Of a DNA stretch of 64,000 bases, positions 8,601 through 25,287 are shown one piece after another. Position 1 is the first letter of the stretch. Every line of letters begins with the position of its first letter. Origin of the DNA: Alphaproteobacteria bacterium (GTDB lineage Bacteria; Pseudomonadota; Alphaproteobacteria; Caulobacterales; Maricaulaceae); assembly GCA_024278855.1 (NCBI GenBank), contig JAJRSJ010000007.1, positions 1 through 64,000 of the forward strand, written 5' to 3'. Made by a program: the position numbers and the translations under genes. The notes beneath the pieces are model-generated. The model made no database searches and was not told the origin of the DNA. It saw only the letters and a list, made by a program, of their open reading frames with translations.

Positions 8601-10538
8601 GAAATGGGCAAGGATATCCAAACTGAAGAATTTGACGTCATCGGCATTGGGGACATGTCCGGGGATGTGTTTGGCAATGGCATGTTATTGTCCAAGAAAA
8701 TCCGGCTTTTAGCGGCGTTTGATCACCGCGATATTTTTATTGACCCAGATCCTGAGGTGGCAAAAAGTTTTAAAGAGCGCAAAAGGCTATTTGAAAAACC
8801 TCGCTCCAGTTGGCAAGACTATAACACAAAGCTGATTTCCAAAGGCGGCGGTGTGTTTTCCCGCAGCGAAAAATCAATCAAATTAAGCCCGCAAATTCAA
8901 CAACTAACCGGGCTTTCCGCTGCGCAAGTCACACCTAATCAGCTCATGCAGGCCTTGCTGAAATCACAGTGCGAACTCTTGTGGTTTGGCGGTATCGGAA
9001 CCTATATTAAGTCTGCGAGCGAAACCGATGAACATGCCCATGATAAAGCTAATAATGCTATAAGAATAAATGGCTTAGATTTAAAAGCTAAAGTAATAGG
9101 CGAGGGGGCAAATTTGGGTGTTACCCAAGCAGGCCGTATAGAATTTGCCAAGAACGGTGGGCGGGTTAACACGGATGCCATCGACAATTCAGCCGGGGTT
9201 GATTGCTCTGATAATGAGGTCAATATCAAGATTTTGCTGTCCGGCGCTATTGAAAGCGGCGAGCTTCAGAAAAGCGAACGTGTCAAATTGCTAGAAACCA
9301 TGACCGAAGATGTATCTGCCCTGGTTTTGCAGCATAATTATGACCAGACGGGCGCGCTGTCTCTGGCGCATATGTATGCCCGGGAAGACCATCATGCCTA
9401 TGAACGGTTTATGGAGAGTGTGGAAGCGCAAGACCGGTTGGACCGTGATATAGAAGGGTTGCCGTCCCCGTCTGACATGCAAATGATTGCCGAAAACGGC
9501 GGGCGTTTGACCCGGCCTGAATTGGCGGTGTTGAATGCCTATGCCAAGATTGTTCTCTTTGATGATTTAATTGAGACGGATGTTGCTGATGACCCGTTTT
9601 TCGGCACAATGTTGCGCGAATATTTCCCAACTGCGGTTCAAAGTTTTGGTACGGCACTGAAAAGGCACCGTTTGCGCCGCGAAATTATAATTTCGCGGCT
9701 GTGCAACAGGATGGTCGATGTTGGCGGCCCGGTATTTATGTCAACTCTAAGCGAGCCAACCAATGGCAGTCCGGGCGAGATCGCCAAAGCTTTCACAATT
9801 GCTTATGAGGTTTTGCAAATCGGTGCAATTCGCACTGCCATTAACGATCTTGACAATAAAATTAGTGCTGAAGCACAGTTAAGCCTGCAAGCCGAAATTT
9901 CCACCGTTTTGCAGCGGGTGATCGGCTGGTTGGTGCGGCGCGGGGAAAGTGGCTCAATAGATATGCGCATAGCCCGGCGTACCGACGGCCTGGCCCATGT
10001 GGACGAGGGGTGGATCGATGTGCTGTCCAGCTATGATAGCAGGCGGGTCGCGGCGCGGATCGGGCGGTTTATCCGCTCAGGCATCCCGGAAGCTTTGGCG
10101 GCAGATGTTTCGCTCTTGCGCGCGCGTGCATCCGGGTTTGATGTTGTGGAGTTGACCGAGAAAACGGGGTGGCCCATCCGCAAAGCCGCCGAGTTGTTCT
10201 ATGATATGGGCGGGCGGTTTAAAATTGACCGTTTGCGCTCTATGTCCATGAAAACCCAACCTAAAACCCACTGGGAAGGCCTCGCGCAACAACGTATCGA
10301 GGAAGATTATTACGCGGCACAAGCCAGTTTGGCCCTGGAGGCAGCCCGGATCCATATTGATAACGGAGGTACGGCCAAGGCCGATACTAAAACCATGATT
10401 GCCACATATGTGGAGGTGAAAAGCCATGCGGTACAGGCTTATGATGCGGTATATAGTAAAATCAATGCATCCGGGGGTTGGACTTTGGCAAAATTCGCCA
10501 TAGTCAATGGGCAAATTCGGGAGTTGTTAGGCACATAG
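5677..10538 (+). CDS. NAD-specific glutamate dehydrogenase (large ~1600-aa type), interrupted by an apparent -1 frameshift near 6091-6105
   Basis: ORF 5677-6120 (N-terminal part) and ORF 6117-10538 (...GPVARGGLRWSDRRDDFRTEVLGLVKAQQVKNAVIVPVGSKGGF...) together give the expected NAD-GDH length; upstream in-frame codons of ORF2 read KGEKVRESMMQVLISRQ. Confidence 0.9.
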
Positions 10539-10613: not shown

Positions 10614-12371
10614 ATGATTTCACCGACGAGTTCAGATCGTGGCCAACCATTGGTGCGTGGCCATTTTGAGACATTAACCGACGCTCTGGAATATGCGGCA
10701 AGTTGTGACACCGGGTTTAATTTCTTTTGCGGGCGCGGCAAGCTAAAAACGCGGCTTTCCTTTGCCGAGTTGCGCGATCAAGCGGTTGAGACGGCCAAGC
10801 GGCTTGTTGGCATTACGGATCCGGGTGACCGGATCGGAATATGTGCCGTGACCAGCCCTGAATTCGTTATTTTGTTCTTTGCCTGTCAATATGCAGGGCT
10901 AGTCCCCGCACCCCTGCCATTACCCGTAACTTTGGGTGGGCGCGGCAGTTATGAGCGCCAATTGCAACGCATGACCGATACGGGTGATTTTGCAGCCCTC
11001 TTGACCCCTGCCAGCATGGAGAAAATTGTCAGCTCCGCTCTTAATGACCATGATGTCCCTGTCATAAGCTTCACGGATTTGGCTAATTTGCCTATGGTCG
11101 ATAAACTGCGACCCCATGATGCAGATGGCCCTTGTTATATCCAATATTCCTCAGGCAGCTCCAGTTCTCCAAAAGGCATTATCGGAACCCAAAAAACCGT
11201 CACCTCTAATTGTATGGCGATGGTGAGTTCGGGCGGTATGGATTTGCGCGAGGGTGACCGCAGCACATCTTGGCTGCCTATGTATCATGATATGGGTCTG
11301 GTCGGGTTTATGATTGCCCCTATGATGAGCCAAATGACGGTGGATTATCTGGATCCGCAAGATTTCACCCGCCGTCCCATAACCTGGTTGCAATTGATCA
11401 GCGATCATAAAAGCACATTTTCTTTTAGTACGACATTTGGCTATGAACTTTGTGTGCGTCGTTGGCGGCAAGACCGCGAGCTGGATTTATCCACATGGCG
11501 TGCGGCTGGCATTGGCGGTGATATGGTGCAGGCGGAACCTTTGAGGGAATTTGCCAAAACATTTGCGCCGTCCAGTTTTAAAGCCAATGCCTTTACGCCG
11601 AGTTATGGTTTGGCAGAAATTACGCTCGGGGTTTCGTTTTCACCGTCCGGGCAGGGCTTATTGGAAGATACTATCGACATAGACCGGTTGGAACGTACTG
11701 GCGAGGCCGTACCTGTGACCGATATAACCCCGGCCGAACACCAAAGAACATTCGTCGCGTGCGGCCCGGTGATACCGGGACATAAACTTGAAATCCGTAA
11801 TTTGGAAGGTCAGGCATTGGGCCAGCGTAAAGTCGGGCGTATCTGTTTGCTTGGCCCCAGTATTACGCCGGGTTATTATCACAATGCTTTGGCAACCCAG
11901 GCCGCCTTTACCGAAGATGGTTGGTTGGATACGGGCGATCTGGGCTATTGGCTAGATGACCAAGTGGTGGTCACGGGCCGGTTTAAAGATTTGATTTTGT
12001 GGCACGGCCGCAATATCTGGCCCCAGGATATCGAATGGGCGGCGCAAGCTTCGGCGCCAAGTCGGTGTGGGCGGGCCTGTGCCTTTGCGGTCGGGGGCAG
12101 TGGTGACGACAAAGAAATCATTTTACTGTTGGAATGCCGCACCCGCGATGAGGCTTTGCTGTCAGAAATACACACAACGGTTAGCGGTGCCATTCGGTTG
12201 GAAATCGGTGCGCCGGTCACGCTTATTTTAGTGCCGCGCGGCTCTATGATTGTCACATCATCTGGCAAGTTAAGCCGGGCGCGTGTCCGTAAAAAATTCC
12301 TAGGTGGGGCTATTATTGATTTGCAAGATGATGCGACACTTAGAGTCCTCGACGAACATCGCGGTGCCTAA
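10614..12371 (+). CDS. AMP-dependent synthetase/ligase, FAAL-like; probable acyl-ACP synthetase for sphingolipid synthesis (AasR-like)
   Basis: Adenylation motifs YIQYSSGSSSSPKGI, PSYGLAEI, WLDTGDLGYW; directly upstream of reductase, ACP and Spt. Confidence 0.8.
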   Translation: MISPTSSDRGQPLVRGHFETLTDALEYAASCDTGFNFFCGRGKLKTRLSFAELRDQAVETAKRLVGITDPGDRIGICAVTSPEFVILFFACQYAGLVPAPLPLPVTLGGRGSYERQLQRMTDTGDFAALLTPASMEKIVSSALNDHDVPVISFTDLANLPMVDKLRPHDADGPCYIQYSSGSSSSPKGIIGTQKTVTSNCMAMVSSGGMDLREGDRSTSWLPMYHDMGLVGFMIAPMMSQMTVDYLDPQDFTRRPITWLQLISDHKSTFSFSTTFGYELCVRRWRQDRELDLSTWRAAGIGGDMVQAEPLREFAKTFAPSSFKANAFTPSYGLAEITLGVSFSPSGQGLLEDTIDIDRLERTGEAVPVTDITPAEHQRTFVACGPVIPGHKLEIRNLEGQALGQRKVGRICLLGPSITPGYYHNALATQAAFTEDGWLDTGDLGYWLDDQVVVTGRFKDLILWHGRNIWPQDIEWAAQASAPSRCGRACAFAVGGSGDDKEIILLLECRTRDEALLSEIHTTVSGAIRLEIGAPVTLILVPRGSMIVTSSGKLSRARVRKKFLGGAIIDLQDDATLRVLDEHRGA

Positions 12372-13269
12372 ACTCGTCGCTCTAACGGGCGCGACCGGAT
12401 TTGTTGGCCGGATTGTGGTTCTGGATTTGCTTGAGCGCGGATACCGTATCAAGGCATTGGTGCGCCTAGGGTCTTTGGACAAGACACTTCAGCACGCAAA
12501 TATCAATGGGATAGAAGGCGAACTTGGCAATCCTGCTAGCGAAAAAAGCTTGTGCGCCGGTGCGGATATTGTGATCCATATGGCCGGACTGGTTACGGCT
12601 CGCACCAAACATGCATATTATAAAATTAATGCCGAAGCCGTCGGCACATTGACACAGGCCGCCAGTGCAGCCGGGGTCGTGCGGTTCATTTATTTATCCT
12701 CTTTGGCGGCAAAAATGCCAAAATTATCTGACTATGCCGGATCAAAGCGGGCCGGCGAGGGGGCGTTGGCGCGCCGTCTCGGTTCTATGCAGGCCGTGGT
12801 CGTGCGCGCCCCGGCCGTGTTTGGGGCGAGCGACAAGGCAACGGCCCCTTTTTATGCTTTAATCCAAAAGGGTTGGCTGCCGGCCCCGGGCGGACGGAAA
12901 TGGCGGGCGCGGAAACTTGGTCTAGTTTACGTGGATGATTTGGCCGCGTTTATCACCGGGGCGTGTTTGGACGGGATTTGTGATGGGCGTACCGTGGCCC
13001 CTGCGACCACTGCCAGTCTAACATGGCCTGAATTTGGCCATATATGTAGCGCGGCAATGGGGAAACGGGTTAAGGTCTTTCCCGTTCCCTTGTCGGTGCT
13101 TTACCCGGTTGCGGCAATAAATAGTGTGACGAAACGCCTGTTTGGCAAGGGGCATTTGACCCTTGGCAAGCTTCGGGAGTTTTTACATGATGACTGGAGT
13201 ACCCCGGATGAATTTGTGTCAGAAACACCGTTGCAATTGGCCTTGAAAAAGACAATACTAGACGGCTAA
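12328..13269 (+). CDS. NAD(P)-dependent epimerase/dehydratase-type SDR, CerR-like (oxidised-ceramide reductase candidate)
   Basis: Rossmann GATGFVGR at N-terminus, extended-SDR features; position next to acp and spt. Start uncertain (ORF track 12304). Confidence 0.7.
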   Translation: MMRHLESSTNIAVPKLVALTGATGFVGRIVVLDLLERGYRIKALVRLGSLDKTLQHANINGIEGELGNPASEKSLCAGADIVIHMAGLVTARTKHAYYKINAEAVGTLTQAASAAGVVRFIYLSSLAAKMPKLSDYAGSKRAGEGALARRLGSMQAVVVRAPAVFGASDKATAPFYALIQKGWLPAPGGRKWRARKLGLVYVDDLAAFITGACLDGICDGRTVAPATTASLTWPEFGHICSAAMGKRVKVFPVPLSVLYPVAAINSVTKRLFGKGHLTLGKLREFLHDDWSTPDEFVSETPLQLALKKTILDG

Positions 13270-13297
13270 TTTTGTAAAAAAACAAGAAGAGCCTTAC

Positions 13298-13561
13298 ATG
13301 CCCGACCCAATTCTTATGCCGACGCCTGAACAAATATTCGATAAAATTTGCGAGCTTCTGGTGCCTTACAATCCGAAAAACCATGTGATTAACCGCCAAA
13401 GCGGCATTGTCACGGATTTGGAGGTGGATTCCACCGCCGTATTTGATTTAATAATGGGGCTTGAGGATTTTTATGATATATCCATTCCCATGGAAATGGT
13501 CAGCGATATCAAAACCGTAGGCGAGTTGGTCAATGCCGTGCGCCAATTAACGGCGGCGTAA
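13298..13561 (+). CDS. Acyl carrier protein, specialised (AcpR-like)
   Basis: 87 aa, LEVDSTAVFDLIMGLEDFYDISIP with DS(T) phosphopantetheine site; immediately upstream of spt. Confidence 0.85.
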   Translation: MPDPILMPTPEQIFDKICELLVPYNPKNHVINRQSGIVTDLEVDSTAVFDLIMGLEDFYDISIPMEMVSDIKTVGELVNAVRQLTAA

Positions 13562-13567
13562 GCGGGC

Positions 13568-14797
13568 ATGGATATATTTGATAAATTCGCGCCCCTTAAA
13601 GCCCGTTCCGATATGGTCAAAAAGCTTGGCCCGGACCCATTTGGTGTCAAATTCGACGAAATTGAACACGCGACGCGCGGGCGTGTTGGTAATCGGTCCA
13701 TTGTCCTTGCCGGGACCAATAACTATCTTGGTTTGACCTTTGACCCTGACTGTATGGATGCCTCCATCAATGCCATCAAAAAACACGGCACGGGGACGAC
13801 AGGCTCGCGAATTGCCAATGGATCTTACGCTGAGCATTTGGATTTGGAAGAGGCTCTGGCCAAACATGCGGGGCTAGCGAGCGCCGTTGTGTTTTCTACC
13901 GGATACCAGACTAACTTAGCGGCAATCGCCACACTGGCCGGGCCAAAAGATGTGTTGTTTATCGACGCAGACAGCCATGCCTGTATTATTGACGGTTGCC
14001 GCCTCAGTGCCGCACCGACCATCCGTTTTAGACACAATTCTCCGGCTGATCTGGACAAGCGTCTGACCCGCCACGGCGCGATCAAAGACGGTATCGCATT
14101 GGTGGTTATCGAAGGCTTGTATTCCATGTTCGGCGACCGGGCACCCATTGCGGAGTTTGTTGATGTCTGCCAAAAACACGGGGCCTATCTCTATATTGAC
14201 GAAGCCCATTCATTTGGCGTGTTTGGCCCGACCGGATGCGGCTTGGCCGAAGAAGAGGGGGTTTTGGACAAAGTTGATTTCATTTCGGGCACATTTTCCA
14301 AAAGCTTAGCTTCCATTGGCGGGTTTTGTTTGTCCAAACACAAAGGTTTTGAAATCACCCGCAAAGCCATGCGCGCCTATATGTTCACGGCCTCTCCGAC
14401 CCCGTCCAATATAGCATCGGCCCGGGCAGCCTTGGACAAAATCGCCGAAAAACCGGAACTGCGCGACAATTTGCACGCCCGCGCCGCACAACTCCATAGC
14501 GGTTTGTCCGAAATGGGCTATGATTTATGCGCGAGCGCTAGCCCGATCATCGCCGTGCGCCGCCCCAATGAACTCGTGGCGGCAACGGAATGGAATTGGT
14601 TGTTAGAAGAAGGCGTCTACGTCAACTTGGCCGTTCCGCCCGGCACCCCCCAGTCCAGTTCACTCCTGCGTATAAGTCTTTCAGCAGCCCATACCGAGGC
14701 CGAAATTAACACCATCCTCAAAGCATTTAAAGATATGCAAGGGCAGGGTGATGCGCTGATGGCACGGGTGCAAGAGGTTATGGCAGCAGCGCAGTAA
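13568..14797 (+). CDS. spt: Serine palmitoyltransferase (alpha-oxoamine synthase family)
   Basis: GTGTTGSRIANGSYAEHLDLEEALAKHAG, IDEAHSFGVFGPTGCGLAEE, PLP-lysine motif GTFSKSLASIGGF; genomic context with ACP. Confidence 0.9.
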   Translation: MDIFDKFAPLKARSDMVKKLGPDPFGVKFDEIEHATRGRVGNRSIVLAGTNNYLGLTFDPDCMDASINAIKKHGTGTTGSRIANGSYAEHLDLEEALAKHAGLASAVVFSTGYQTNLAAIATLAGPKDVLFIDADSHACIIDGCRLSAAPTIRFRHNSPADLDKRLTRHGAIKDGIALVVIEGLYSMFGDRAPIAEFVDVCQKHGAYLYIDEAHSFGVFGPTGCGLAEEEGVLDKVDFISGTFSKSLASIGGFCLSKHKGFEITRKAMRAYMFTASPTPSNIASARAALDKIAEKPELRDNLHARAAQLHSGLSEMGYDLCASASPIIAVRRPNELVAATEWNWLLEEGVYVNLAVPPGTPQSSSLLRISLSAAHTEAEINTILKAFKDMQGQGDALMARVQEVMAAAQ

Positions 14798-14809
14798 TCA
14801 GGTATATCC

Positions 14810-15784
14810 CTACCGAAAAGCACCGCGTTTGTAGAGTTTCCAGGCTAGGACTGGTGACCATAGTACCGGGTGTTTGCGTTGGCTTTTTGTAACTTCGATG
14901 GTGACGCCGGAGTGGGATTTTAGTTTGTGCAGGGCGTAGTCGAGGCCGCCGTCGAATGTGGCGGCGGAGTTCAGGATACGGATGGCCGCAACAATCTTGC
15001 CAAAGAAGCGCCGCCAAAACCATTTCCATTTACACACGAGACGGGAAAAACCTGATGCGGCGGGTAATGAATATGTGTCGGTGTCGGTGTCTGCGGCTGC
15101 CATTTTAGCGAAAAAAATGTCCATCAACGCATCATAACGGTCTTGATAACGGCTGACGATTTCTTCTGAGCGGGCGCTGGAGCTTTCCGGGCGTAGCTCG
15201 GTTTTGTAGCTTTCCAAAAACCCGCGCCCCCAGAATGTACGCGCACTTAGGGGGCTTTGGAGCAGGGGGGATATTTGGCGCGATAAATGGGCAATGGCTT
15301 GGCTGCGGGCAGTTTGAATGCGGGCATATATGTCCGGACTATTGGGGAATAACAAGACGCACGGCTGGGAAAAACGACCCCAAACTTGGGACAGGAAAGC
15401 TTGTCTCCTACATTTTTTTTCAAATGAAGCTAAGGAAATAATTGAATATTTACAGGTAGATAAAGAGCCATCTTCATTTATCTTTTCAAGATAATAAACG
15501 GCCGGCGGGATCAGCCAGTTCAGAAAAGCCCGCACTAGGTTTTTATGGGTTCTCCGGTAGCTGTCCACCAACACATAAAAATCTAGCATTTTATCCGGGT
15601 CATTCATAGCCCGCAAAGAAGAGCCATAATACAAAAATGCTTGTACCCTGTCCCCATTTGAGCCGCTGTGACGGGCTTTGATTCTAGCGCACATGGCAGT
15701 AACATTTGCGGTCGGGGCCAATTGCTCCGCGTCCAGTATTTTTATGATTGCCTTTGTGTCGTGCATTTGGGTGTCCATGCTCAT
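14810..15784 (-). CDS. Uncharacterised protein, possible Tam41/phosphatidate-cytidylyltransferase-like nucleotidyltransferase
   Basis: YYGSSLRAMNDPDKMLDFYVLVDSYRRTHKNLVRAFLNWLIPPAVYYLE resembles the GS...D/LDF nucleotidyltransferase core of Tam41-type enzymes; overlaps kinase gene start (translational coupling). Confidence 0.5.
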   Translation of the reverse strand: MSMDTQMHDTKAIIKILDAEQLAPTANVTAMCARIKARHSGSNGDRVQAFLYYGSSLRAMNDPDKMLDFYVLVDSYRRTHKNLVRAFLNWLIPPAVYYLEKINEDGSLSTCKYSIISLASFEKKCRRQAFLSQVWGRFSQPCVLLFPNSPDIYARIQTARSQAIAHLSRQISPLLQSPLSARTFWGRGFLESYKTELRPESSSARSEEIVSRYQDRYDALMDIFFAKMAAADTDTDTYSLPAASGFSRLVCKWKWFWRRFFGKIVAAIRILNSAATFDGGLDYALHKLKSHSGVTIEVTKSQRKHPVLWSPVLAWKLYKRGAFR

Positions 15785-16725
15785 TTGATAAACCGTAACG
15801 GCTTTGTCGCATAGAGGGAAATTGGCGCATTGGTCCGGGGCAAAAATTCGCCGTCCAACACCATTTCGCCGTCGAGCCGCACCTTCGCATGTTCAATATT
15901 CCAGCTTTGAAATCCGTCGCGTTTAAGGGCGCGGTGGGCGCGACTAGACTGCCCCGGCAACAACATGCGTGCGATATTTCGTTTAAGATGCTTGGCGTTT
16001 TTACGAACATGGGTGATCATTAACGGGCCGTCGCCTTTGCCCCAAAACGGCTTTAAACCGATCATGAGCCGGGGCAGGGGCGTGGTGATGGTGACAATAT
16101 GATCACCGTCAAGCTGCTTTTCTCCCAAATCAAGATAGAGCGGCGTCGGGGTCAAGATAGCTTCACGTTCCCGTTTGCGCCCAAGCATGACTTTAAGCAA
16201 GGTTGAACGCACCGCAGCCGAGCCACCAATTCCCTTGGTGTGGACATGATCCAGACAATAGCGGGTTGCGGCGGGAAGCGCGCCTGTGGACAATAAAAAC
16301 CCGTAATGGGTTTTATCTGCCCCCGCCGCCTTGACGGCTAGCATGGAAAGGTCAACACGGTTAGGGGTTCGGACGCCGTCCATAAGTCCAGTCAGTTTTT
16401 TTACCGACGGGCGTTTTAATCCCACATGGGCGGCAACGAGATTAGTCATGCCGCCGGGGAGTAATGTGAATTCAGGGAGTTTGTCTATATGGGGCTGGTG
16501 GTTCATAAAGGCGGATAAAACGCCGTGAATAGTGCCGTCACCCCCTTCGATAAACACATGGTCATTGCCTGTCTTCAGGATGTTTGCGACAGCGGAATTA
16601 AGGGTTTCAAAAGACTGCAAGACGGTGCAATTTTCCCGGTTGGTGCGCCCGGTTTTTTGCAATACTGACCCGCTTTTGGCGACGCTGTGGCTGAGTGGGT
16701 TGATGATGAAAGCGGGATTTTTCAT
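15781..16725 (-). CDS. Diacylglycerol kinase-catalytic-domain protein; ceramide kinase (CpgB-like) candidate
   Basis: FIINPLSH..., FIEGGDGTIHGVLSAF, LLPGGMTNLVAAHVG typical of DAGK/LCB-kinase family; embedded in sphingolipid locus. Confidence 0.75.
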   Translation of the reverse strand: MKNPAFIINPLSHSVAKSGSVLQKTGRTNRENCTVLQSFETLNSAVANILKTGNDHVFIEGGDGTIHGVLSAFMNHQPHIDKLPEFTLLPGGMTNLVAAHVGLKRPSVKKLTGLMDGVRTPNRVDLSMLAVKAAGADKTHYGFLLSTGALPAATRYCLDHVHTKGIGGSAAVRSTLLKVMLGRKREREAILTPTPLYLDLGEKQLDGDHIVTITTPLPRLMIGLKPFWGKGDGPLMITHVRKNAKHLKRNIARMLLPGQSSRAHRALKRDGFQSWNIEHAKVRLDGEMVLDGEFLPRTNAPISLYATKPLRFIK

Positions 16726-16729
16726 GAGG

Positions 16730-17800
16730 TTATAGGGATAAATCTTCGGTTTTTAAGGTGAGGTAGCCGCCGACCAGAGTGAAAATAATCAAGGGCATAG
16801 CCACGGCCCATCCGGGCGATACACCGCCGGATACGGCAAATGTCGAAAGGGCGCCGTCGAGTATCAGATAAACAACCCCGGCAGCAATTCCAACAAACAA
16901 GGCTTTGTCGCCAGTATCTTCGCGCCCGGTTTTTTGCATGATTGGCACGGCGCAAATCAATAAAACCAAGGCCGCGAGCGGGCGCGTGATCCGGTGCAGA
17001 TACCAATAACCGTAGGCGAAACCGGGCTTGGATCCGGAATTGCCCTCGGTTCGAAAATGCCGCATGTCTGCGAGAGATAAATCGCGCGGGTCGGCCGCAA
17101 GCTTGGCGATACTGGTTGGTGTTTGTTCGCTTGTCCAAATTGTAAATGGTGCAGGTGTGAACATTTCTCTGGGGGTTATCCGGTCGCTATGGGTCAGCAC
17201 CCAATGTTTATTTTCATAATCATAACTTGCTTTATCGGCCCAACTGACAATGGATATTTCGCCGTTGTCTTCAAGGTCGAAAAACTGTAAATCTGTCAAA
17301 GTCTCCATATCTGTCCGCCCCGCAGCCCGAACAATGCGCGTGCCGTCTTGGAGCCATAAGGGCTTGTCTTCACTGATTGCTGTGCGCTTGTACTCACCCA
17401 CCCCCCAAGCTTGTAAGGCCCGCACGGACGGCGGCATGGCAATATTGATAAAAATCACGCAAAGCATGGTTAGTCCTATCACTGCCGGAGCGAGCATGGC
17501 CACTTGTTTGGGGACTGAAAATCCAAATCCCATCATGGCCACCAATTCATGTTGACGGATCAGTTTTACATAGCTGAGCAACATGGCCACGATGATCGTG
17601 AACAATAAAACCCGGTCAAAAATTACCGGAGCGCGGTAGAGCATATATTCAAAACTTGCCGTAAACCCGCGCCCATCGGCGAGGATTGCCGCACTATTGG
17701 CCAGCGAGTCTAATAACCCGATCATGAGCAAAAGCCCGAAGGTTACAACAAGCCAGTTAAAGACAAAAATTCTGGAAATATATATGGCTAAACGGATCAT
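16730..17800 (-). CDS. LptG-family permease (YjgP/YjgQ)
   Basis: IYISRIFVFNWLVVTFGLLLMIGLLDSLANSAAI..., six-TM YjgP/YjgQ layout; 4-bp overlap with upstream LptF-like gene. Confidence 0.85.
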   Translation of the reverse strand: MIRLAIYISRIFVFNWLVVTFGLLLMIGLLDSLANSAAILADGRGFTASFEYMLYRAPVIFDRVLLFTIIVAMLLSYVKLIRQHELVAMMGFGFSVPKQVAMLAPAVIGLTMLCVIFINIAMPPSVRALQAWGVGEYKRTAISEDKPLWLQDGTRIVRAAGRTDMETLTDLQFFDLEDNGEISIVSWADKASYDYENKHWVLTHSDRITPREMFTPAPFTIWTSEQTPTSIAKLAADPRDLSLADMRHFRTEGNSGSKPGFAYGYWYLHRITRPLAALVLLICAVPIMQKTGREDTGDKALFVGIAAGVVYLILDGALSTFAVSGGVSPGWAVAMPLIIFTLVGGYLTLKTEDLSL

Positions 17801-18984
17801 TGTGGGGTTACACCGCCTTTCACAAATGGGAACAGGGCGCGACTGGCTTTGCGGATATCCTTAAGTACATCACCAATGAAAATTGATAATGTTGCCAAGG
17901 GTGGTTGGCCCATTTTTACGGCGCTATTGCGGAAAATATAATAGGCCGAAATTGTTACCACACCCATAAGCGGCCAAATGCCCAACCAAGGCGGTATGAT
18001 GCCCTGCGCGCCAAGGCTCTGGCCAAATTCCAGAGATTTTTGCAAAATGACAATAGATATAATTCCGACGGCAATGCCTGCGGAAGACGGATTGCGACCA
18101 TAGTTTATACCGAAGGGTACGGCAATAAACGGTATAACCAGTAACAGATAAGCCTTGGCTAGTCGAAGATGTAATGCAGCATTATTGGCACTGACGGACA
18201 GGTTGGGAAACAAGATGCCTGTCCGGTTTTTATACAGCTCCATCGAGGTCAATTCCCGTTCATCACTGCCGCGCGCCCGAAATTGGTTTGCTGTAACCGT
18301 ACCGGCGATTGCGCTTAGGCCAAAGGCGAGACGCTCCTTAACGGTTTTGTCTTGGGTGATGCGAAAACTGTCCCCATTTTCAAGCTGTAAACCCGGTTGC
18401 CCGGTTTTGCCGCGTATGACTAAATTTCCCTTGGCCGCCGTGGTTAAACGTATACCGCCGCCCTTGGTTTTTTCGTAAATAAAAATAGGCCCACCACCAG
18501 GCCCCACGTAAAAAGTCGTACCGCCGACCTTGGTAAATTTACCCTCGCGCAAGATGGCTGCAAAAGATTTTTGGGTCACAGAATGCTCAACTTCCCGGTA
18601 ACCGTACCGGCCCACGGGCTGCATATATCCCTCAAGAACCAATGTAAAACCAGCCAGGACAATAGAGATCAAAATAAACGGTTTGGTCATGTGAAACAAA
18701 GAAATACCAGCCCCGAATGCCGAGGTGAGTTCGGAGGTACGCGATAAACGGTCAATGGTGATCAATGTCCCCAGCATCAAAGCCATAGGGATTGCGATCC
18801 CCAGATAGTGGGGCAAGAGGCTGACCACCATTTGTGTCGCATCGCCTGCCGGACGTGTTGACGACGCCACAACTTCAAAAATACGCAGCAGGCGTTCCAA
18901 CAGCAAAACCGCAAGCGCAAACAAGACAAGTCCGCCAATGACCCTAAGTGCGCCGCGCAGTATATATTGATTTAATTGTCCCAA
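17797..18984 (-). CDS. LptF-family permease (YjgP/YjgQ)
   Basis: LNQYILRGALRVIGGLVLFALAVLLLERLLRIFEVVASS...LLPHYLGIAIPMALMLGTLITIDRLSRTSELTSAFGAGIS; TTG start in ORF track. Confidence 0.85.
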   Translation of the reverse strand: MGQLNQYILRGALRVIGGLVLFALAVLLLERLLRIFEVVASSTRPAGDATQMVVSLLPHYLGIAIPMALMLGTLITIDRLSRTSELTSAFGAGISLFHMTKPFILISIVLAGFTLVLEGYMQPVGRYGYREVEHSVTQKSFAAILREGKFTKVGGTTFYVGPGGGPIFIYEKTKGGGIRLTTAAKGNLVIRGKTGQPGLQLENGDSFRITQDKTVKERLAFGLSAIAGTVTANQFRARGSDERELTSMELYKNRTGILFPNLSVSANNAALHLRLAKAYLLLVIPFIAVPFGINYGRNPSSAGIAVGIISIVILQKSLEFGQSLGAQGIIPPWLGIWPLMGVVTISAYYIFRNSAVKMGQPPLATLSIFIGDVLKDIRKASRALFPFVKGGVTPQ

Positions 18985-19234
18985 AACTGTCCTAAACCTT
19001 TACAGCGATTGACCCTTACCATCTGGCTTATATATCATAATTTTTATAGCCGTGGTTTGGTTAGATTTAACTGTATTTGTTTTATATGAGGAACACAAAA
19101 TTTCGCAACACATTCCTGTCAGATAATGAAATGCTTCAGGCCTAATATTAGTCTTGAATTTGTTGGTTTAAAACCGCAAAAGAAATCTATAAAACGATGA
19201 AATAATATAAAAAGCGCAAACTAGCGAGGCAATA

Positions 19235-20386
19235 GTGCAAGCACAAAAAATTTCTATTGTTCCTGTAATGGATAAAGCCGGGCGCAAACAATTTTTAAAT
19301 TTTCCATATGAGTTGTACCGGGGAGAGCCACATTGGCGGGCACCTTTGCGCTTTGAGCGTGCGGTGCAAATCAATCCCAAAAAAAACCCGGCTCTGGACG
19401 GTCTTGAAACACAATTGTTTTTAGCGGTGAGCGGCGGGGAAATTGTTGGCCGCATCGCGGCAATTATCAACCCCCATCATCTGGAAATTCATAAGGATGC
19501 GACGGGGCATTTCGGATTTTTGGATAGCCGTGATGACCCCAAAATCATCAAAGCCTTGATCGCCGCGGCGCGGCGTTGGCTAAAAGAACGCGGCATGGGC
19601 CGCATTGTTGGCCCGTTGAGCTTTAGCATCAATGAGGAGGTTGGGTTGCTCATCAACGGCTTTGATACACCGCCCGTATTGATGATGCCTTATGGCCGTC
19701 CTGATTACCAATCCAGCATCGAAGCTTTAGGTTTTACCAAGGCCGTAGATATGCACGCCTATTGGACCGATATGCACGCCGGCTATCCGCGTCCAAAAAT
19801 TGTCACGACCATGGTGAATTATGTAGAGAAAGACCCAAATATCACCGTGCGGCCAATGGATAAATCCAATTTTTTGCAAGAAGTACAAATGGCCATGGGC
19901 ATCTTTAATGATGCCTGGTCGGACAATTGGGGGTTTGTGCCGTTTTCAGATGTGCAGATTAAACATATGGCAAATGAGCTTAAACCTTTGTTATTCCCGG
20001 ATTTTTTCTGGGTTTGTGAATATAAAGGCGAACCGGCGGCGTTTATTTTGATGATTCCTAACCTTAATGAGGCACTGGCGGGGCTTGACGGAAAGCTTTT
20101 GCCTTTTGGTTGGGCTAAATTGCTGTACCGTTTGAAGATAAAAGGTTTAAAAACTGCCCGTATTCCGCTCATGGGGGTGCGCAGAGAGTTTCAACGCAAG
20201 CGTAGCGGGCTGGCAATGGCGGCATATCTAAGCGAAAAAGTGTTCGAAAAGGCCCGTAATCGCGGCTTTACCCATGTAGAAATGGGCTGGATTTTAGAGG
20301 ATAATAAAAGCATGATCCGCATTATCGAGCAGGCGCAAGGGACGGCCTATAAAACCTACCGCATGTACGAAAAGCCGATCTCGTGA
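19235..20386 (+). CDS. GNAT-like acyltransferase family protein; bacterial ceramide synthase (bCerS)-like candidate
   Basis: FLNFPYELYRGEPHWRAPLRFERAVQINPKKNP...GPLSFSINEEVGLLINGFDTPPVLMMPYGRPDYQSSIEALGFTKAVDMHAYW; family and spt-linked position match the Caulobacter bCerS family as I recall it. Confidence 0.65.
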   Translation: MQAQKISIVPVMDKAGRKQFLNFPYELYRGEPHWRAPLRFERAVQINPKKNPALDGLETQLFLAVSGGEIVGRIAAIINPHHLEIHKDATGHFGFLDSRDDPKIIKALIAAARRWLKERGMGRIVGPLSFSINEEVGLLINGFDTPPVLMMPYGRPDYQSSIEALGFTKAVDMHAYWTDMHAGYPRPKIVTTMVNYVEKDPNITVRPMDKSNFLQEVQMAMGIFNDAWSDNWGFVPFSDVQIKHMANELKPLLFPDFFWVCEYKGEPAAFILMIPNLNEALAGLDGKLLPFGWAKLLYRLKIKGLKTARIPLMGVRREFQRKRSGLAMAAYLSEKVFEKARNRGFTHVEMGWILEDNKSMIRIIEQAQGTAYKTYRMYEKPIS

Positions 20387-21159
20387 GCGAGAATGTATGT
20401 GTCCTGATTTTGGCTGGTCAGCGCGCCAATAAAAACGGGGAAAGAGTTGTAGACCCGTTGCTCGCCGGCACAGGGGTTTCCTGGAAAGCTTTGCTGCCTA
20501 TTCGCGGCAAACCCATGGTCGGTTATGTTTTGGCAGCACTGGATGCCAGCAAAACTGTTTCGCGGCCCTATTGGATTAGCGGTCTTGATAAAGACCTGAT
20601 TGACCAAAGCCTTAATCAGTCCCCATCTGAAGGTGGGCCGGCCAGTAGTGTTGTTGTTGCCGCCAAAGCGGGGCTGCCCTATCCGTTCATGGTGACCACG
20701 TGTGATCATCCTTTGTTAAGTTCGGATATGGTCGAGTATTTTTTGCAAGAAAGCCAAGCTAGCGGCGCAGATTTTACCTTAGGCTTGGCGACGAAAGACA
20801 TCATCCACCCCGCTTATCCCAATGTCAAACGGACTTATTTGAAGTTTAAAAATCAACATGTGTCGGGATGTAATTTATTTTATGTGCGCAATGAAAAAGG
20901 GCTGGAAGCGATCAAGTTTTGGCGCGCCGCTCAACATGATCGTAAACGCCCGCTCAGATTGGCCCGCCGGCTCGGCTTTGGCATGTTGCTTAAATATTTA
21001 TCGGGTGGTTTAACGTTGGAAAAAGCTTTCGAACATGCTTCTAAATCATTGAGAATAGACGCTAAAGCTATACTTTTGCCTTTTGCTGAAGCTGCCATAG
21101 ACGTGGATAAACCGTCCGATCTTGTACTGGTAAAAGAGATTTTGAACGGTCATAAATGA
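20383..21159 (+). CDS. MobA-like NTP transferase domain protein
   Basis: VLILAGQR...ISWKALLPIRGKPMVGYVLAAL...TTCDHPLL; ATGA-type overlap with upstream gene. Confidence 0.75.
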   Translation: MSENVCVLILAGQRANKNGERVVDPLLAGTGVSWKALLPIRGKPMVGYVLAALDASKTVSRPYWISGLDKDLIDQSLNQSPSEGGPASSVVVAAKAGLPYPFMVTTCDHPLLSSDMVEYFLQESQASGADFTLGLATKDIIHPAYPNVKRTYLKFKNQHVSGCNLFYVRNEKGLEAIKFWRAAQHDRKRPLRLARRLGFGMLLKYLSGGLTLEKAFEHASKSLRIDAKAILLPFAEAAIDVDKPSDLVLVKEILNGHK

Positions 21160-22514
21160 GCCAGGATTTGCGCATTGCTGAAAAGGGTACGGTCGGGCGA
21201 CGGGTCGCCGCAAATACCGGCTTGATGGTTGGGGCAAAGGCGTTGGCTGCTTTAATCGGTCTGGCGTCCCTGATTATAGCAACGCAAACTTTGCCAATAG
21301 CGTCCGTCGGCATTATTTTATTCTTACACGCTTATATGCTGTTTTTTGCGGAAGTTGCGACATTCCAGTCCTGGCAAGCGGTCATAAAGTTCGGCGCCCA
21401 GGATGTAGAAGCCGGCAACAAAACCGCTTTATGCCGGCTCTTGCGGTTTTGTATTGCTTTGGATTTTGTCGGGGCAATGGTCGCATTTGTCCTGGCCGTC
21501 GCCGGATTATATGCTCTCCATATGCTCTTGCCCTTATTGCCATCATTTACGGGGCAAAATGATTTGCTAAATGCACATCAGATCACACAATACGGCATTG
21601 CCTATTGCTTGTTGGTGCTTGTGCACCAAGGGGGGGCATCGACAGGTCTATTTCGCTTGTTTGACAAATTCAAGCCTCTAGCTTTGCAAATTTTAGTTAT
21701 GCCGGTCGCAAGATTGATAGGTGTGGTCGTGGCTGCGGTTTACGGGGCAGGGCTCGAAGGTTTTTTGGTGGCGTGGTTTGTTGGCTCGTTTTTTGGGTAT
21801 TTGGCTCTGCCTGTATTTGCGGTGTTTGAGCTTAAATCCCGCAATTTACTTCACACCGTATTTAGCCAATGGCCCAGACTTAAAACCCGACATAAAGGCA
21901 TGTGGCCATTTGTCTGGAAAGCTAATATTGATGCATCTTTGGCCACGGGAACCACCCATTTACCGCTATTGTTGGTAATGCCCATTTTCGGGCCTGCATT
22001 TGTAGGTGTCTTCAAAGTGGCTGAGGAAATCGCCCGCTTGCTGTCCGAAGCCGTTTTGTTGTTAGACAGGGTGATTTACCCGGAATATGCCCGCATGATG
22101 GTGCGCGGGCAAGGCGGGCATATTTGGCGGATCGTCCTGAAAACCGGTGTCATCATGCTTGCATTTGGATTGGCATTATCGGCGCTTGTTTTGCTGGTTG
22201 GGCCTTATTTGATACCTTTGGTTTTTGGCCCAGACTATTTGGACGCCGTAGCCTTGTCGGTTCTTCTGGTGTTGGCGGCGACTTTAATGGGGGTTTCGGC
22301 CCCGCTTTACCCCGTTTTTTTCGCCGCAGGACATCCAGGGCGGGCCATATTTGCCAGGCTCGGCGGTTTGGTTTTATATGTGGTTTTAGTGTTTACTTTA
22401 AGCCAGTGGCTTGGCAAAACCGGGCCAGGTTGGGCGGCTATCGGGGGTAATTTATTGGCGGTCATCTTGGCGGTCTGGTTGGCAAAAAAAACCTTGGAAG
22501 CAAAACATGACTAA
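21156..22514 (+). CDS. Polysaccharide/lipid flippase-like membrane protein (Wzx/MATE-like)
   Basis: ~12 hydrophobic segments, VGRRVAANTGLMVGAKALAALIGLASLIIATQTLP; ATGA overlap with preceding gene. Confidence 0.75.
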   Translation: MSQDLRIAEKGTVGRRVAANTGLMVGAKALAALIGLASLIIATQTLPIASVGIILFLHAYMLFFAEVATFQSWQAVIKFGAQDVEAGNKTALCRLLRFCIALDFVGAMVAFVLAVAGLYALHMLLPLLPSFTGQNDLLNAHQITQYGIAYCLLVLVHQGGASTGLFRLFDKFKPLALQILVMPVARLIGVVVAAVYGAGLEGFLVAWFVGSFFGYLALPVFAVFELKSRNLLHTVFSQWPRLKTRHKGMWPFVWKANIDASLATGTTHLPLLLVMPIFGPAFVGVFKVAEEIARLLSEAVLLLDRVIYPEYARMMVRGQGGHIWRIVLKTGVIMLAFGLALSALVLLVGPYLIPLVFGPDYLDAVALSVLLVLAATLMGVSAPLYPVFFAAGHPGRAIFARLGGLVLYVVLVFTLSQWLGKTGPGWAAIGGNLLAVILAVWLAKKTLEAKHD

Positions 22515-23226
22515 ACAACGCATAGCCATATTCGATCTGGACGAGACCTTGACTAAAAAGGGGACATGGGGACGATTTGTTACTGGCACTTTACGGGGCA
22601 AACCTTTGAAATGGATACCGTTTCTAACATCGAGCCTGTTCTCGCAAGCCCGCTATATGTTGCGTTTTGGTCCCCGTGAACATGTGAAAGAAAACATGAT
22701 GCGCTGGACTTTGTCCGGTAAAACGCGTAGCGAACTGGAAGCTCTTGCGGCAGATTTTGCTGACAGGGAGGTTAATGAGGGGCTGCGTTTGCGCGCAAAA
22801 ACCATGATTGAGCAACACCGGGCCAATGGTGACCGTATCATAATTGCCAGCGCCGCCGTTGATTTGGTCGTCGGTCCGATTGCGCACAGGCTTGATATTA
22901 GCGAGATTGTCTGTACGAAAATGGCATATCTTGCAGATGATAGATTGTCTGGGAAATTAGGCGGCATGAATTGTTACGGGGCCAATAAATTACTTATGGT
23001 GAGGGCGTATTTGGAGCAGGAGGCGAAATTTAAACGCGGGCAAGCCCATATCACAATGTATTCAGACAGTCGTTCTGACCTTGATATAATGCGTTGGGCT
23101 GATGTAGGTATAGCGGTAAACCCGAGCCCGCGCCTTGCGGCGGTAACGGAAAAATATGGGTTTGAGGTTCAGGACTGGAACCAAGAAACAGACCAAGAAG
23201 CAGGCCAAGAAGCAAATAAGGACTAA
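22507..23226 (+). CDS. HAD-IB (SerB-like) phosphatase
   Basis: MTKQRIAIFDLDETLTKKGTW; ASAAVDLVVGPIA; YSDSRSDLDIMRWADVGIAVNP. ORF-track start 22411 is too far upstream. Confidence 0.85.
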   Translation: MTKQRIAIFDLDETLTKKGTWGRFVTGTLRGKPLKWIPFLTSSLFSQARYMLRFGPREHVKENMMRWTLSGKTRSELEALAADFADREVNEGLRLRAKTMIEQHRANGDRIIIASAAVDLVVGPIAHRLDISEIVCTKMAYLADDRLSGKLGGMNCYGANKLLMVRAYLEQEAKFKRGQAHITMYSDSRSDLDIMRWADVGIAVNPSPRLAAVTEKYGFEVQDWNQETDQEAGQEANKD

Positions 23227-23228
23227 TT

Positions 23229-24449
23229 ATGCGCATGTTAAAAACCATGATGAAGCGCTTTGTCAAAATCGGCAAATTGACAATAATAGACCTAGACGGT
23301 GAGGCCCATGAATTTGGCCCCGGCGGCGTGCCGACGGTTTGTATTAAATTACACGAGAAAAAACTTTACATGGATCTGTTCCTCAACCCCGAACTTAGAG
23401 CCGGCGAGGCCTATATGGACGGCAGTTTGACGGTTGAACAAGGCACAATCCGGGATTTCCTGACGCTGTTTGCGATCAATGCAGACAATTTGCGCGCCCA
23501 CCCTTTGCAAAAATCCATCCGGAAATATTACAAGCGGGTCAAACGTTTTCACCAGAGAAATTTTAAAAAAGCCGCCAAGTCCAATGTGCAGCACCATTAT
23601 GATTTGTCCAACGGTTTTTATAAACTGTTCCTGGACGACGATATGCAATATTCTTGCGCCTATTTTGAGCGTGAAGATATGACACTTGCAGAAGCGCAAT
23701 TGGCCAAAAAACGCCATATTGCCGCCAAGCTCGATTTAAAGCCGGGCCAAAAAGTGCTTGATATTGGCTGTGGCTGGGGCGGAATGGCTATATATCTGGC
23801 GCAAAATTTTGATGTCCATGTCACGGGTGTCACCCTGTCTACCCAACAACACAAATTGGCTATTGAGCGAGTTGTCAAAGCGGGGTTGACGGGCAAGGTC
23901 GATATTTTGCTGCAAGATTACCGCGATTTGCCCGGGCCGTTTGACCGGATTGTTTCGGTCGGCATGTTCGAACATGTTGGCACGCCGCAATTTAGCGAGT
24001 TTTTTAATAAAGTGCATGATCTGCTCACGGATGACGGGGCTATGTTGCTGCATTCTATCGGGCGCAGGGGCGGGCCTGGGTCTACGGCGCGCTGGATCCG
24101 AAAATATATATTCCCCGGCGGTTACTCTCCGGCCTTGTCCGAAACCATAGCCGTGGTCGAGCAGTCCGGGCTTTGGATTACGGATATGGAAATTTTGCGC
24201 CTGCATTATGCCAAAACCCTCCGGCAATGGGATAGGAATTTCCAAGCCAACCGCGACAAAGTGTCCTCTATGATGGACGAGAAGTTTTGTCGTATGTGGG
24301 AGTTCTATTTAATCATCAGCGAGCTTTCCTTTATTTACGGCAAAAACATGAATTTTCAAATGCAATTGACCAAGGATCGAAACGCATTGCCCATAACCAG
24401 AGATTATATGGGCAAGGTGGAAGCGAAGCTGAGACGCAGGAAAAATTGA
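23229..24449 (+). CDS. Cyclopropane-fatty-acyl-phospholipid synthase family SAM methyltransferase
   Basis: NVQHHYDLSNGFYKLFLDDDMQYSCAYF, VLDIGCGWGGMAIYLAQ, VSVGMFEHVG. Confidence 0.9.
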   Translation: MRMLKTMMKRFVKIGKLTIIDLDGEAHEFGPGGVPTVCIKLHEKKLYMDLFLNPELRAGEAYMDGSLTVEQGTIRDFLTLFAINADNLRAHPLQKSIRKYYKRVKRFHQRNFKKAAKSNVQHHYDLSNGFYKLFLDDDMQYSCAYFEREDMTLAEAQLAKKRHIAAKLDLKPGQKVLDIGCGWGGMAIYLAQNFDVHVTGVTLSTQQHKLAIERVVKAGLTGKVDILLQDYRDLPGPFDRIVSVGMFEHVGTPQFSEFFNKVHDLLTDDGAMLLHSIGRRGGPGSTARWIRKYIFPGGYSPALSETIAVVEQSGLWITDMEILRLHYAKTLRQWDRNFQANRDKVSSMMDEKFCRMWEFYLIISELSFIYGKNMNFQMQLTKDRNALPITRDYMGKVEAKLRRRKN

Positions 24450-24456
24450 GGGTAAT

Positions 24457-25287
24457 ATGGCTAATGTTGAAAATATTCAAGCGAACGAAATTCCTGCACC
24501 TGAGCGCCCGAAATCCATTTCCAGCCCGCGCCGCCGTTTCATCAAAAAGCTTGGCAAGAAACTCCTGCAAACGGTTTCGCGCATCCAAACCAAACAATCT
24601 CTGGTGCCAACCACACCGTTTATTGATATTGAGCATTTTGAATTTCTGCCCCAGTTCGCCGACAATTGGGAGATTGTTCGAGATGAAGCCCTTGAGGTTT
24701 TGAAATACCGGGACGACATTCCCGGTTTTGAAGATGTTTCGCCGGACCAATACCGGATCGCCAAGAAAAACCAGTGGAAAACCTTTGTCTTGCACGGTTT
24801 TGGCACCCGGCTTGAGAAAAATGCCAAATTGGCTCCCTTTACGACTAAAATGCTGGAAACCATTCCGAATTTGCAAACATCATGGTTCTCTATTTTAGCC
24901 CCCGGCTACCATATTCCGGCCCATAAAGGTGTAACCAAAGGCATTGTGCGTGGCCACCTCGGGCTGATTATTCCGAAAGATAATGAAAAATGCCGCATCC
25001 GTGTCCATGACCAGATAAAACCTTGGCATGAGGGTAGTTTGTTTGTCCTAGACGATACTTATGAACACGAGGTTTGGAATGATACGGACGAAGAGCGGGT
25101 CATTCTTTTGTTTGATTGGGACCGACCCATGAAATTTTGGGGACGTTTTCTCAACGGGCTGATGATGCGTTTGATGAAAATGACCGCCTATTACCAAGAC
25201 CCCAAGAAAAACCTGGAAAACGCCGAAGCCCGCATGGAGGCGGCTATTAAACGTGCCGATGCCAATTTGGAGAAAATGTCGGATTAA
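24457..25287 (+). CDS. Aspartyl/asparaginyl beta-hydroxylase-family dioxygenase (LpxO-like)
   Basis: YHIPAHKGVTKGIVRGHLGLIIPKDNEKCRIRVHDQIKPWHEGSLFVLDDTYEHEVWNDTDEERVILLFDWDRP. Confidence 0.85.
   Translation: MANVENIQANEIPAPERPKSISSPRRRFIKKLGKKLLQTVSRIQTKQSLVPTTPFIDIEHFEFLPQFADNWEIVRDEALEVLKYRDDIPGFEDVSPDQYRIAKKNQWKTFVLHGFGTRLEKNAKLAPFTTKMLETIPNLQTSWFSILAPGYHIPAHKGVTKGIVRGHLGLIIPKDNEKCRIRVHDQIKPWHEGSLFVLDDTYEHEVWNDTDEERVILLFDWDRPMKFWGRFLNGLMMRLMKMTAYYQDPKKNLENAEARMEAAIKRADANLEKMSD

Follow-up and report, generated by a model that had tools for sequence, protein, structure and literature searches.

The first 64,000 nucleotides of contig JAJRSJ010000007.1 (the window), from a Robiginitomaculum-like alphaproteobacterium that is a marine relative of Caulobacter, carry at positions 10614-25287 an island of 14 intact genes that form a conserved sphingolipid set, as identified from open reading frames and domain searches. 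This island probably builds a phosphorylated ceramide lipid by way of CDP-ceramide, with one head-group unit, and sends it to the outer membrane. Most of it is the published Caulobacter ceramide phosphoglycerate (CPG) cluster, CC_1168-CC_1152, down to the second LptF/LptG pair and the flippase, so it is not a new kind of system. What is new is the Tam41 fold of the protein at the position of CpgC, and the absence of the gene pair for the further lipid CPG2, with a cyclopropane fatty acid synthase family enzyme (Cfa) and a dioxygenase (AspH) in its place.

The initial annotation had described thirteen adjacent genes: the named genes and their expected domains were all recovered, but they number 14 and lie not in one operon but in three strand blocks, namely AasR-CerR-AcpR-Spt on the plus strand, CpgC-kinase-LptG2-LptF2 on the minus strand, and CerS-NTase-flippase-HAD-Cfa-AspH again on the plus strand. 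Several adjoining genes overlap by 4-8 bases, which fits the expectation for operons. The genome to which the window belongs comprises 2.72 Mb in 79 contigs and is rated 100% complete with 0.11% contamination.

A predicted Tam41-like fold for CpgC

Two overlapping genes of the minus-strand block correspond to the CPG-pathway gene pair, the assignment being by position:

14810..15784, minus strand: Tam41-like nucleotidyltransferase, CpgC orthologue by position (AlphaFold model, Foldseek, family alignment)
15781..16725, minus strand: CpgB-type ceramide kinase, DAGK_cat (PF00781, 2.2e-10; GGDG at residue 61)

The AlphaFold model of CpgC (pLDDT 93.3, pTM 0.90) was compared with the PDB using Foldseek, and the top five matches were all Tam41, including a Firmicutes enzyme with CTP-Mg as the best match (E 1.1e-7, TM-scores 0.51/0.59) and the Schizosaccharomyces pombe mitochondrial CDP-diacylglycerol synthase; aminoglycoside nucleotidyltransferases came next. 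In the PDB, this relation emerged only by fold search. In Pfam, the Tam41 family PF09139 was matched by 8 of 72 members of the CpgC family (best 1.4e-8), the next-best family reaching 0.06, and a search with PF09139 across the phylum returned one weak match in 399 genomes. An alignment of 72 relatives displayed invariant residues Y52, G53, S54, D67, P92, P93, K111, W134, R136, Q139, P140, E195, R197, and E199, with conserved motifs YGS, PP (92-93), and WxRxxQP. Within the YGS..DFY motif, the first acid (D67) is invariant (72/72), and the position two residues later, which in most nucleotidyltransferases holds another acid, is always Tyr or Phe (72/72). This can be likened to Tam41, in which, according to a review, only one of the fold's three acids is retained. 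Tam41, which moves CMP from CTP onto phosphatidate, is a peripheral membrane enzyme, and CpgC likewise has no membrane-spanning stretch.

We thus propose, from this predicted fold and the gene context, that CpgC would act as a CTP:ceramide-1-phosphate cytidylyltransferase, converting ceramide-1-phosphate and CTP to CDP-ceramide. Because CpgC and the kinase are adjacent and on the same strand in all 64 loci compared, ceramide-1-phosphate would be the simplest substrate and CDP-ceramide the product. An alignment-based scan of GTDB species genomes retrieved 550 CpgC relatives, and bacterial phosphosphingolipids may well be made through CDP-ceramide, produced by a soluble cytidylyltransferase of Tam41 type that occurs in several hundred species. 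None of the papers in the open-licence library searched uses the term "CDP-ceramide", although papers outside that library may do so. Papers from 2025 and 2026 call the mechanism by which CpgC takes ceramide-1-phosphate to ceramide phosphoglycerate unidentified.

The ceramide core

All five ceramide genes (aasR, cerR, acpR, spt, and cerS) are found together in the island, CerS being the GNAT protein in the expected place:

10614..12371, plus strand: AasR, FAAL-type fatty acyl-AMP ligase/acyl-AcpR synthetase, predicted loader of the dedicated acyl carrier protein (NF006624, 649.1; cut-off 600)
12304..13269, plus strand: CerR, SDR reductase, predicted to act on the 3-keto group (Epimerase/SDR, 6e-18); true start probably 12328 or later
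13298..13561, plus strand: AcpR, dedicated acyl carrier protein of 87 residues (PP-binding, 7.5e-6)
13568..14797, plus strand: Spt, serine palmitoyltransferase (NF047599, 563.7; cut-off 500)
19235..20386, plus strand: CerS (bCerS), GNAT-type N-acyltransferase, predicted to make (dihydro)ceramide (Acetyltransf_1, 1.2e-7)

The reading as ceramide synthesis was borne out when Spt was confronted with models of its relatives, clustering with which the initial annotation had named as a refutation: it passed the Spt model and stayed below the cut-offs for BioF (303.6 against 426), KBL (271.5 against 460), and ALAS (234.3 against 338.55). Its closest solved structures are Sphingomonas-type Spt (E 6e-106), and it carries the pyridoxal phosphate lysine motif TFSKS. 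The phosphopantetheine site of AcpR is VDSTA, with DS at 44-45 and the serine at S45. CerR reached no NCBIfam equivalog cut-off, and it is 36% identical to the Hyphomonas johnsonii protein in the same position. AasR, at 50% identity to its H. johnsonii counterpart, also heads the AasR-CerR-AcpR-Spt block in relatives, and CerS, a member of a protein cluster covering 93 loci, is 50.5% identical to the GNAT protein that occupies the same place beside Spt in H. johnsonii.

The gene set is kept in the same order across the genus and the family, which excludes a chance grouping. In a Robiginitomaculum congener (L104), Spt is 94% identical; four further congeners (L028, L033, L034, and L043) retain just the AasR-Spt block, next to glutamate dehydrogenase, and the locus of one genome (G012) lacks LptF2/LptG2, the flippase, and Cfa. 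Among the best 80 of the 550 CpgC relatives, most are alphaproteobacterial, with others from Nitrospirales and gammaproteobacteria and none from Caulobacter. Three Nitrospirales loci (L168, L174, and L183) and two Roseovarius loci (L155 and L156) hold sphingolipid head-group clusters outside Caulobacterales, with CpgC, the kinase, and CDP-alcohol phosphotransferases but no Spt nearby in the stretch examined; these may reflect horizontal transfer.

Head-group pair and chain-modifying enzymes

Two more families accompany these clusters, a CpgD-like cytidylyltransferase with the same R16-K26 spacing as CpgD itself, and a CDP-alcohol phosphotransferase, which we infer to be a candidate for CpgA. 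Across 65 long loci, both were present in 32 and neither in 31, the phosphotransferase occurred alone in 2, and CpgD alone in 0. In the whole window genome, neither a CpgD-type cytidylyltransferase nor the sphingolipid-cluster phosphotransferase was matched, and Cfa and an OlsC/LpxO-like hydroxylase occupy the place of the missing pair. The lipid is therefore predicted, from gene content, to carry one phospho-head-group and modified chains. In a congener (G005), the two genes are direct neighbours on a different contig and are accompanied by a second flippase; Algimonas has a TagF-like glycerophosphotransferase at the position of the pair; and Hellea and Litorimonas encode the phosphotransferase and the MOP flippase as a single fusion protein of about 834 residues (e.g., L126:1622-4126). 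These real fusion proteins merged the flippase and phosphotransferase clusters, which were split by motif, and the fusion ties the flippase to head-group chemistry.

The remaining non-transport genes of the island are as follows:

20383..21159, plus strand: MobA-like NTP transferase (NTase), position of CC_1153 (NTP_transf_3, 1.1e-12)
22507..23226, plus strand: HAD-IB phosphatase (PF12710, 7.4e-25; TIGR01490, 119.9; cut-off 98.3)
23229..24449, plus strand: Cfa, cyclopropane fatty acid synthase family enzyme (CMAS, 1.7e-98; NF053839, 570.5, just under the cut-off of 600)
24457..25287, plus strand: AspH, Fe/2OG dioxygenase of OlsC/LpxO type, proposed fatty-acyl 2-hydroxylase (PF05118, Asp_Arg_Hydrox, 8.8e-47)

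The closest solved structure to the NTase is TTHA0179 (2dpw, 4.8e-25). We considered the NTase as CpgD itself and rejected this, as its key R/K spacing differs and a separate CpgD-like family (f13) stands beside the NTase in other genomes. The HAD phosphatase, which carries the motifs DLDET and YSDSRSD, starts near 22507 rather than at 22411. AspH falls under the cut-offs of both the OlsC (204.1 against 450) and LpxO (129.3 against 500) models.

Transport genes

17797..18984, minus strand: LptF2, second-copy LptF-type permease, start codon uncertain (PF03739, 4.9e-54)
16730..17800, minus strand: LptG2, second-copy LptG-type permease (PF03739, 4.4e-44)
21156..22514, plus strand: MOP-superfamily flippase, 452 residues (AlphaFold pLDDT 86.6; Foldseek)
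19056..19188, plus strand: DUF2141 secreted-protein gene, remnant (gap aligned to relatives by blastn: 5′ and 3′ ends match, middle deleted)

Neither permease reaches the NCBIfam equivalog cut-off for LptF or LptG, and LptF2 is about 24% identical to the canonical Lpt region. We take them as second copies because a separate canonical LptF/LptG pair (G000:C46), LpxC, and other lipopolysaccharide genes are present elsewhere in the genome; the same observation led us to reject the pair as a lipopolysaccharide exporter. The island has no LptC2 and no ATPase gene, so a shared LptB is assumed; one clear and two weak LptC-like matches were detected on contig C19. A transport role for the Lpt2 system is a proposal of the literature only. 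The flippase model matched MATE, WzxE, and MurJ structures (E 1e-7 to 1e-6), consistent with a MOP/MATE fold. In 43 of 55 loci an intact DUF2141 gene separates LptF2 from CerS (full copy at L026:10067-10666), so its product may take part in sphingolipid transport as a periplasmic partner.

Elsewhere in the genome, an inositol-lipid-like module (L202:5876-14437, on G000:C30) encodes a DUF2141 protein, an inositol-phosphate synthase, a CDP-alcohol phosphotransferase, a flippase, an MMPL/HpnN-like exporter, and an inositol-phosphate cytidylyltransferase-like domain fused to GDPD. There (L202:8931-12851), the reading frames of the flippase and of the MMPL protein are both broken in two, perhaps through assembly frameshift errors. 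Upstream of the island, the large glutamate dehydrogenase (5677-10538) is likewise present as two overlapping frames, against one 1617-residue frame in relatives (L203 and L204), which suggests a frameshift near 6100 or a fault of the assembly there.

Proposed pathway

We infer every reaction and transport step below from gene content, protein families, synteny, and predicted folds. AasR would charge AcpR, and Spt would condense the acyl group with serine; CerS would then add the second chain and CerR reduce the keto group, in an order that is debated, to yield dihydroceramide. The kinase would produce ceramide-1-phosphate, onto which the Tam41-like CpgC would transfer CMP from CTP to give CDP-ceramide. 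CMP would next be exchanged for a small alcohol or acid (e.g., glycerate) by a CDP-alcohol phosphotransferase whose gene lies outside the island, giving a lipid of the ceramide phosphoglycerate type. The head group would end at one unit because the genome lacks the pair of CpgA candidate and CpgD-like protein. AspH may add a 2-hydroxyl group and Cfa a cyclopropane ring to a chain; the MOP flippase would turn the lipid over, and LptF2/LptG2 with the shared LptB ATPase would extract it for transport.

Alternative explanations

Several observations weigh against a CDP-ceramide route. The TM-scores of CpgC to Tam41 are moderate (0.44-0.59), the window CpgC itself has no Pfam or NCBIfam match, and searches of the PDB by sequence with two profiles did not reach Tam41. 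The assignments of CpgC, CpgA, and CC_1153 follow gene order instead of sequence comparison with Caulobacter. The island also contains no CDP-alcohol phosphotransferase to act after CDP-ceramide, and the NTase at the CC_1153 position is retained without the CPG2 pair, for which the model gives no explanation. It is conceivable, if rather improbable, that CpgC makes no CDP-ceramide and instead nucleotidylates a water-soluble phosphate such as phosphoglycerate, or passes a group straight to ceramide-1-phosphate, with the head group attached independently of a liponucleotide. The missing phosphotransferase would fit such a route, and the nucleotidyltransferase fold also includes the aminoglycoside enzymes that follow Tam41 in the Foldseek results. 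However, Tam41 comes clearly first in that search and its known substrate is a lipid phosphate, the CpgC gene is locked to a lipid kinase in every locus compared, and the proven phosphoglycerate cytidylyltransferase, which forms CDP-glycerate from CTP and phosphoglycerate in Caulobacter, is CpgD and not CpgC.

The final lipid could also differ from CPG: a PgsA-type enzyme together with the HAD phosphatase could yield ceramide phosphoglycerol, or the separate inositol module could yield ceramide phosphoinositol. Elsewhere in the genome, enzymes of the CDP-alcohol type include a canonical PgsA, another PgsA-like protein, and one of inositol type; the HAD-IB protein bears a weak similarity to PgpC, and the DUF2141 protein of the inositol module is related to that of the sphingolipid clusters. 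We nevertheless consider this outcome unlikely, as the PgsA and inositol loci are physically unlinked to the island and the kinase and CpgC form the CPG pair in Caulobacter. A somewhat better case, though one we still doubt, can be made for Cfa and AspH acting on ordinary phospholipids or lipid A, their position at the island end being incidental, since both fall below NCBIfam cut-offs, resemble enzymes of other lipids, and are missing from many related clusters. Yet the Cfa-AspH pair lies at the opposite cluster end in Henriciella (L157 and L159), and AspH adjoins AasR in another locus (L088), so that the link to sphingolipid genes recurs in differing placements, and relatives without AspH often have a fatty acid hydroxylase beside CerS.

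If correct, the CDP-ceramide route would be for sphingolipids what the CDP-diacylglycerol route is for glycerolipids, and a Tam41-type CpgC would connect the cardiolipin chemistry of mitochondria with a bacterial lipid able to replace lipopolysaccharide. The Tam41 fold suggests how the ceramide head group may be attached, the step described as unidentified, and the variable end of the cluster (CpgA candidate and CpgD, TagF-like protein, or Cfa and AspH) would allow a genome-based prediction of head-group and chain chemistry.

Comparison with known systems

The chain-modifying enzymes resemble OlsC/LpxO hydroxylases and Brucella-type Cfa in domain and best NCBIfam models, but all fall below the curated equivalog cut-offs. 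CpgC resembles the Tam41/TAMM41 CDP-diacylglycerol synthases (6ig2, 6ig4, and the bacterial 7ecd) in predicted fold, in the YGS..D motif with a single acid, and in being peripheral rather than membrane-spanning; it differs in its identity of only about 13%, in a context of ceramide instead of phosphatidate, and in lying below Pfam detection.

The Caulobacter crescentus cluster CC_1168-CC_1152 (CCNA_01210 region) comprises five ceramide genes, six head-group genes, second copies of LptC/LptF/LptG, and a flippase, and mutation has identified 11 genes needed for CPG/CPG2. CpgB is the ceramide kinase; CPG requires CpgB and CpgC, whereas CPG2 requires CpgA and CpgD, as well as the gene at the NTase position (CC_1153). 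The initial annotation held that the extra genes made the island larger than the Caulobacter system, which does not stand, as LptF2/LptG2, the flippase, the kinase, CpgC, and further head-group genes are already part of that cluster. Shared are aasR, cerR, acpR, spt, the kinase, CpgC, lptF2, lptG2, cerS, the CC_1153-position gene, and the flippase, although the latter follows the NTase here and lies beside AasR in Caulobacter. The only apparent additions are HAD, Cfa, and AspH, while the CpgD and CpgA candidates are absent from the window genome and LptC2 from the island.

Matching to Caulobacter by gene order used H. johnsonii (L151) as a bridge, orthologues of 16 of the 17 Caulobacter cluster genes having been reported in H. 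neptunium. H. johnsonii and the Hellea/Litorimonas loci (L126 and L129) share the core genes in the same relative order. They also have both genes that the window genome lacks, CpgD and the CDP-alcohol phosphotransferase, the latter as a fusion with the flippase in Hellea and Litorimonas. Overall, H. johnsonii holds relatives of all island genes except Cfa and AspH, with 32-61% identity for Spt, CpgC, the kinase, LptF2, LptG2, CerS, and the NTase.

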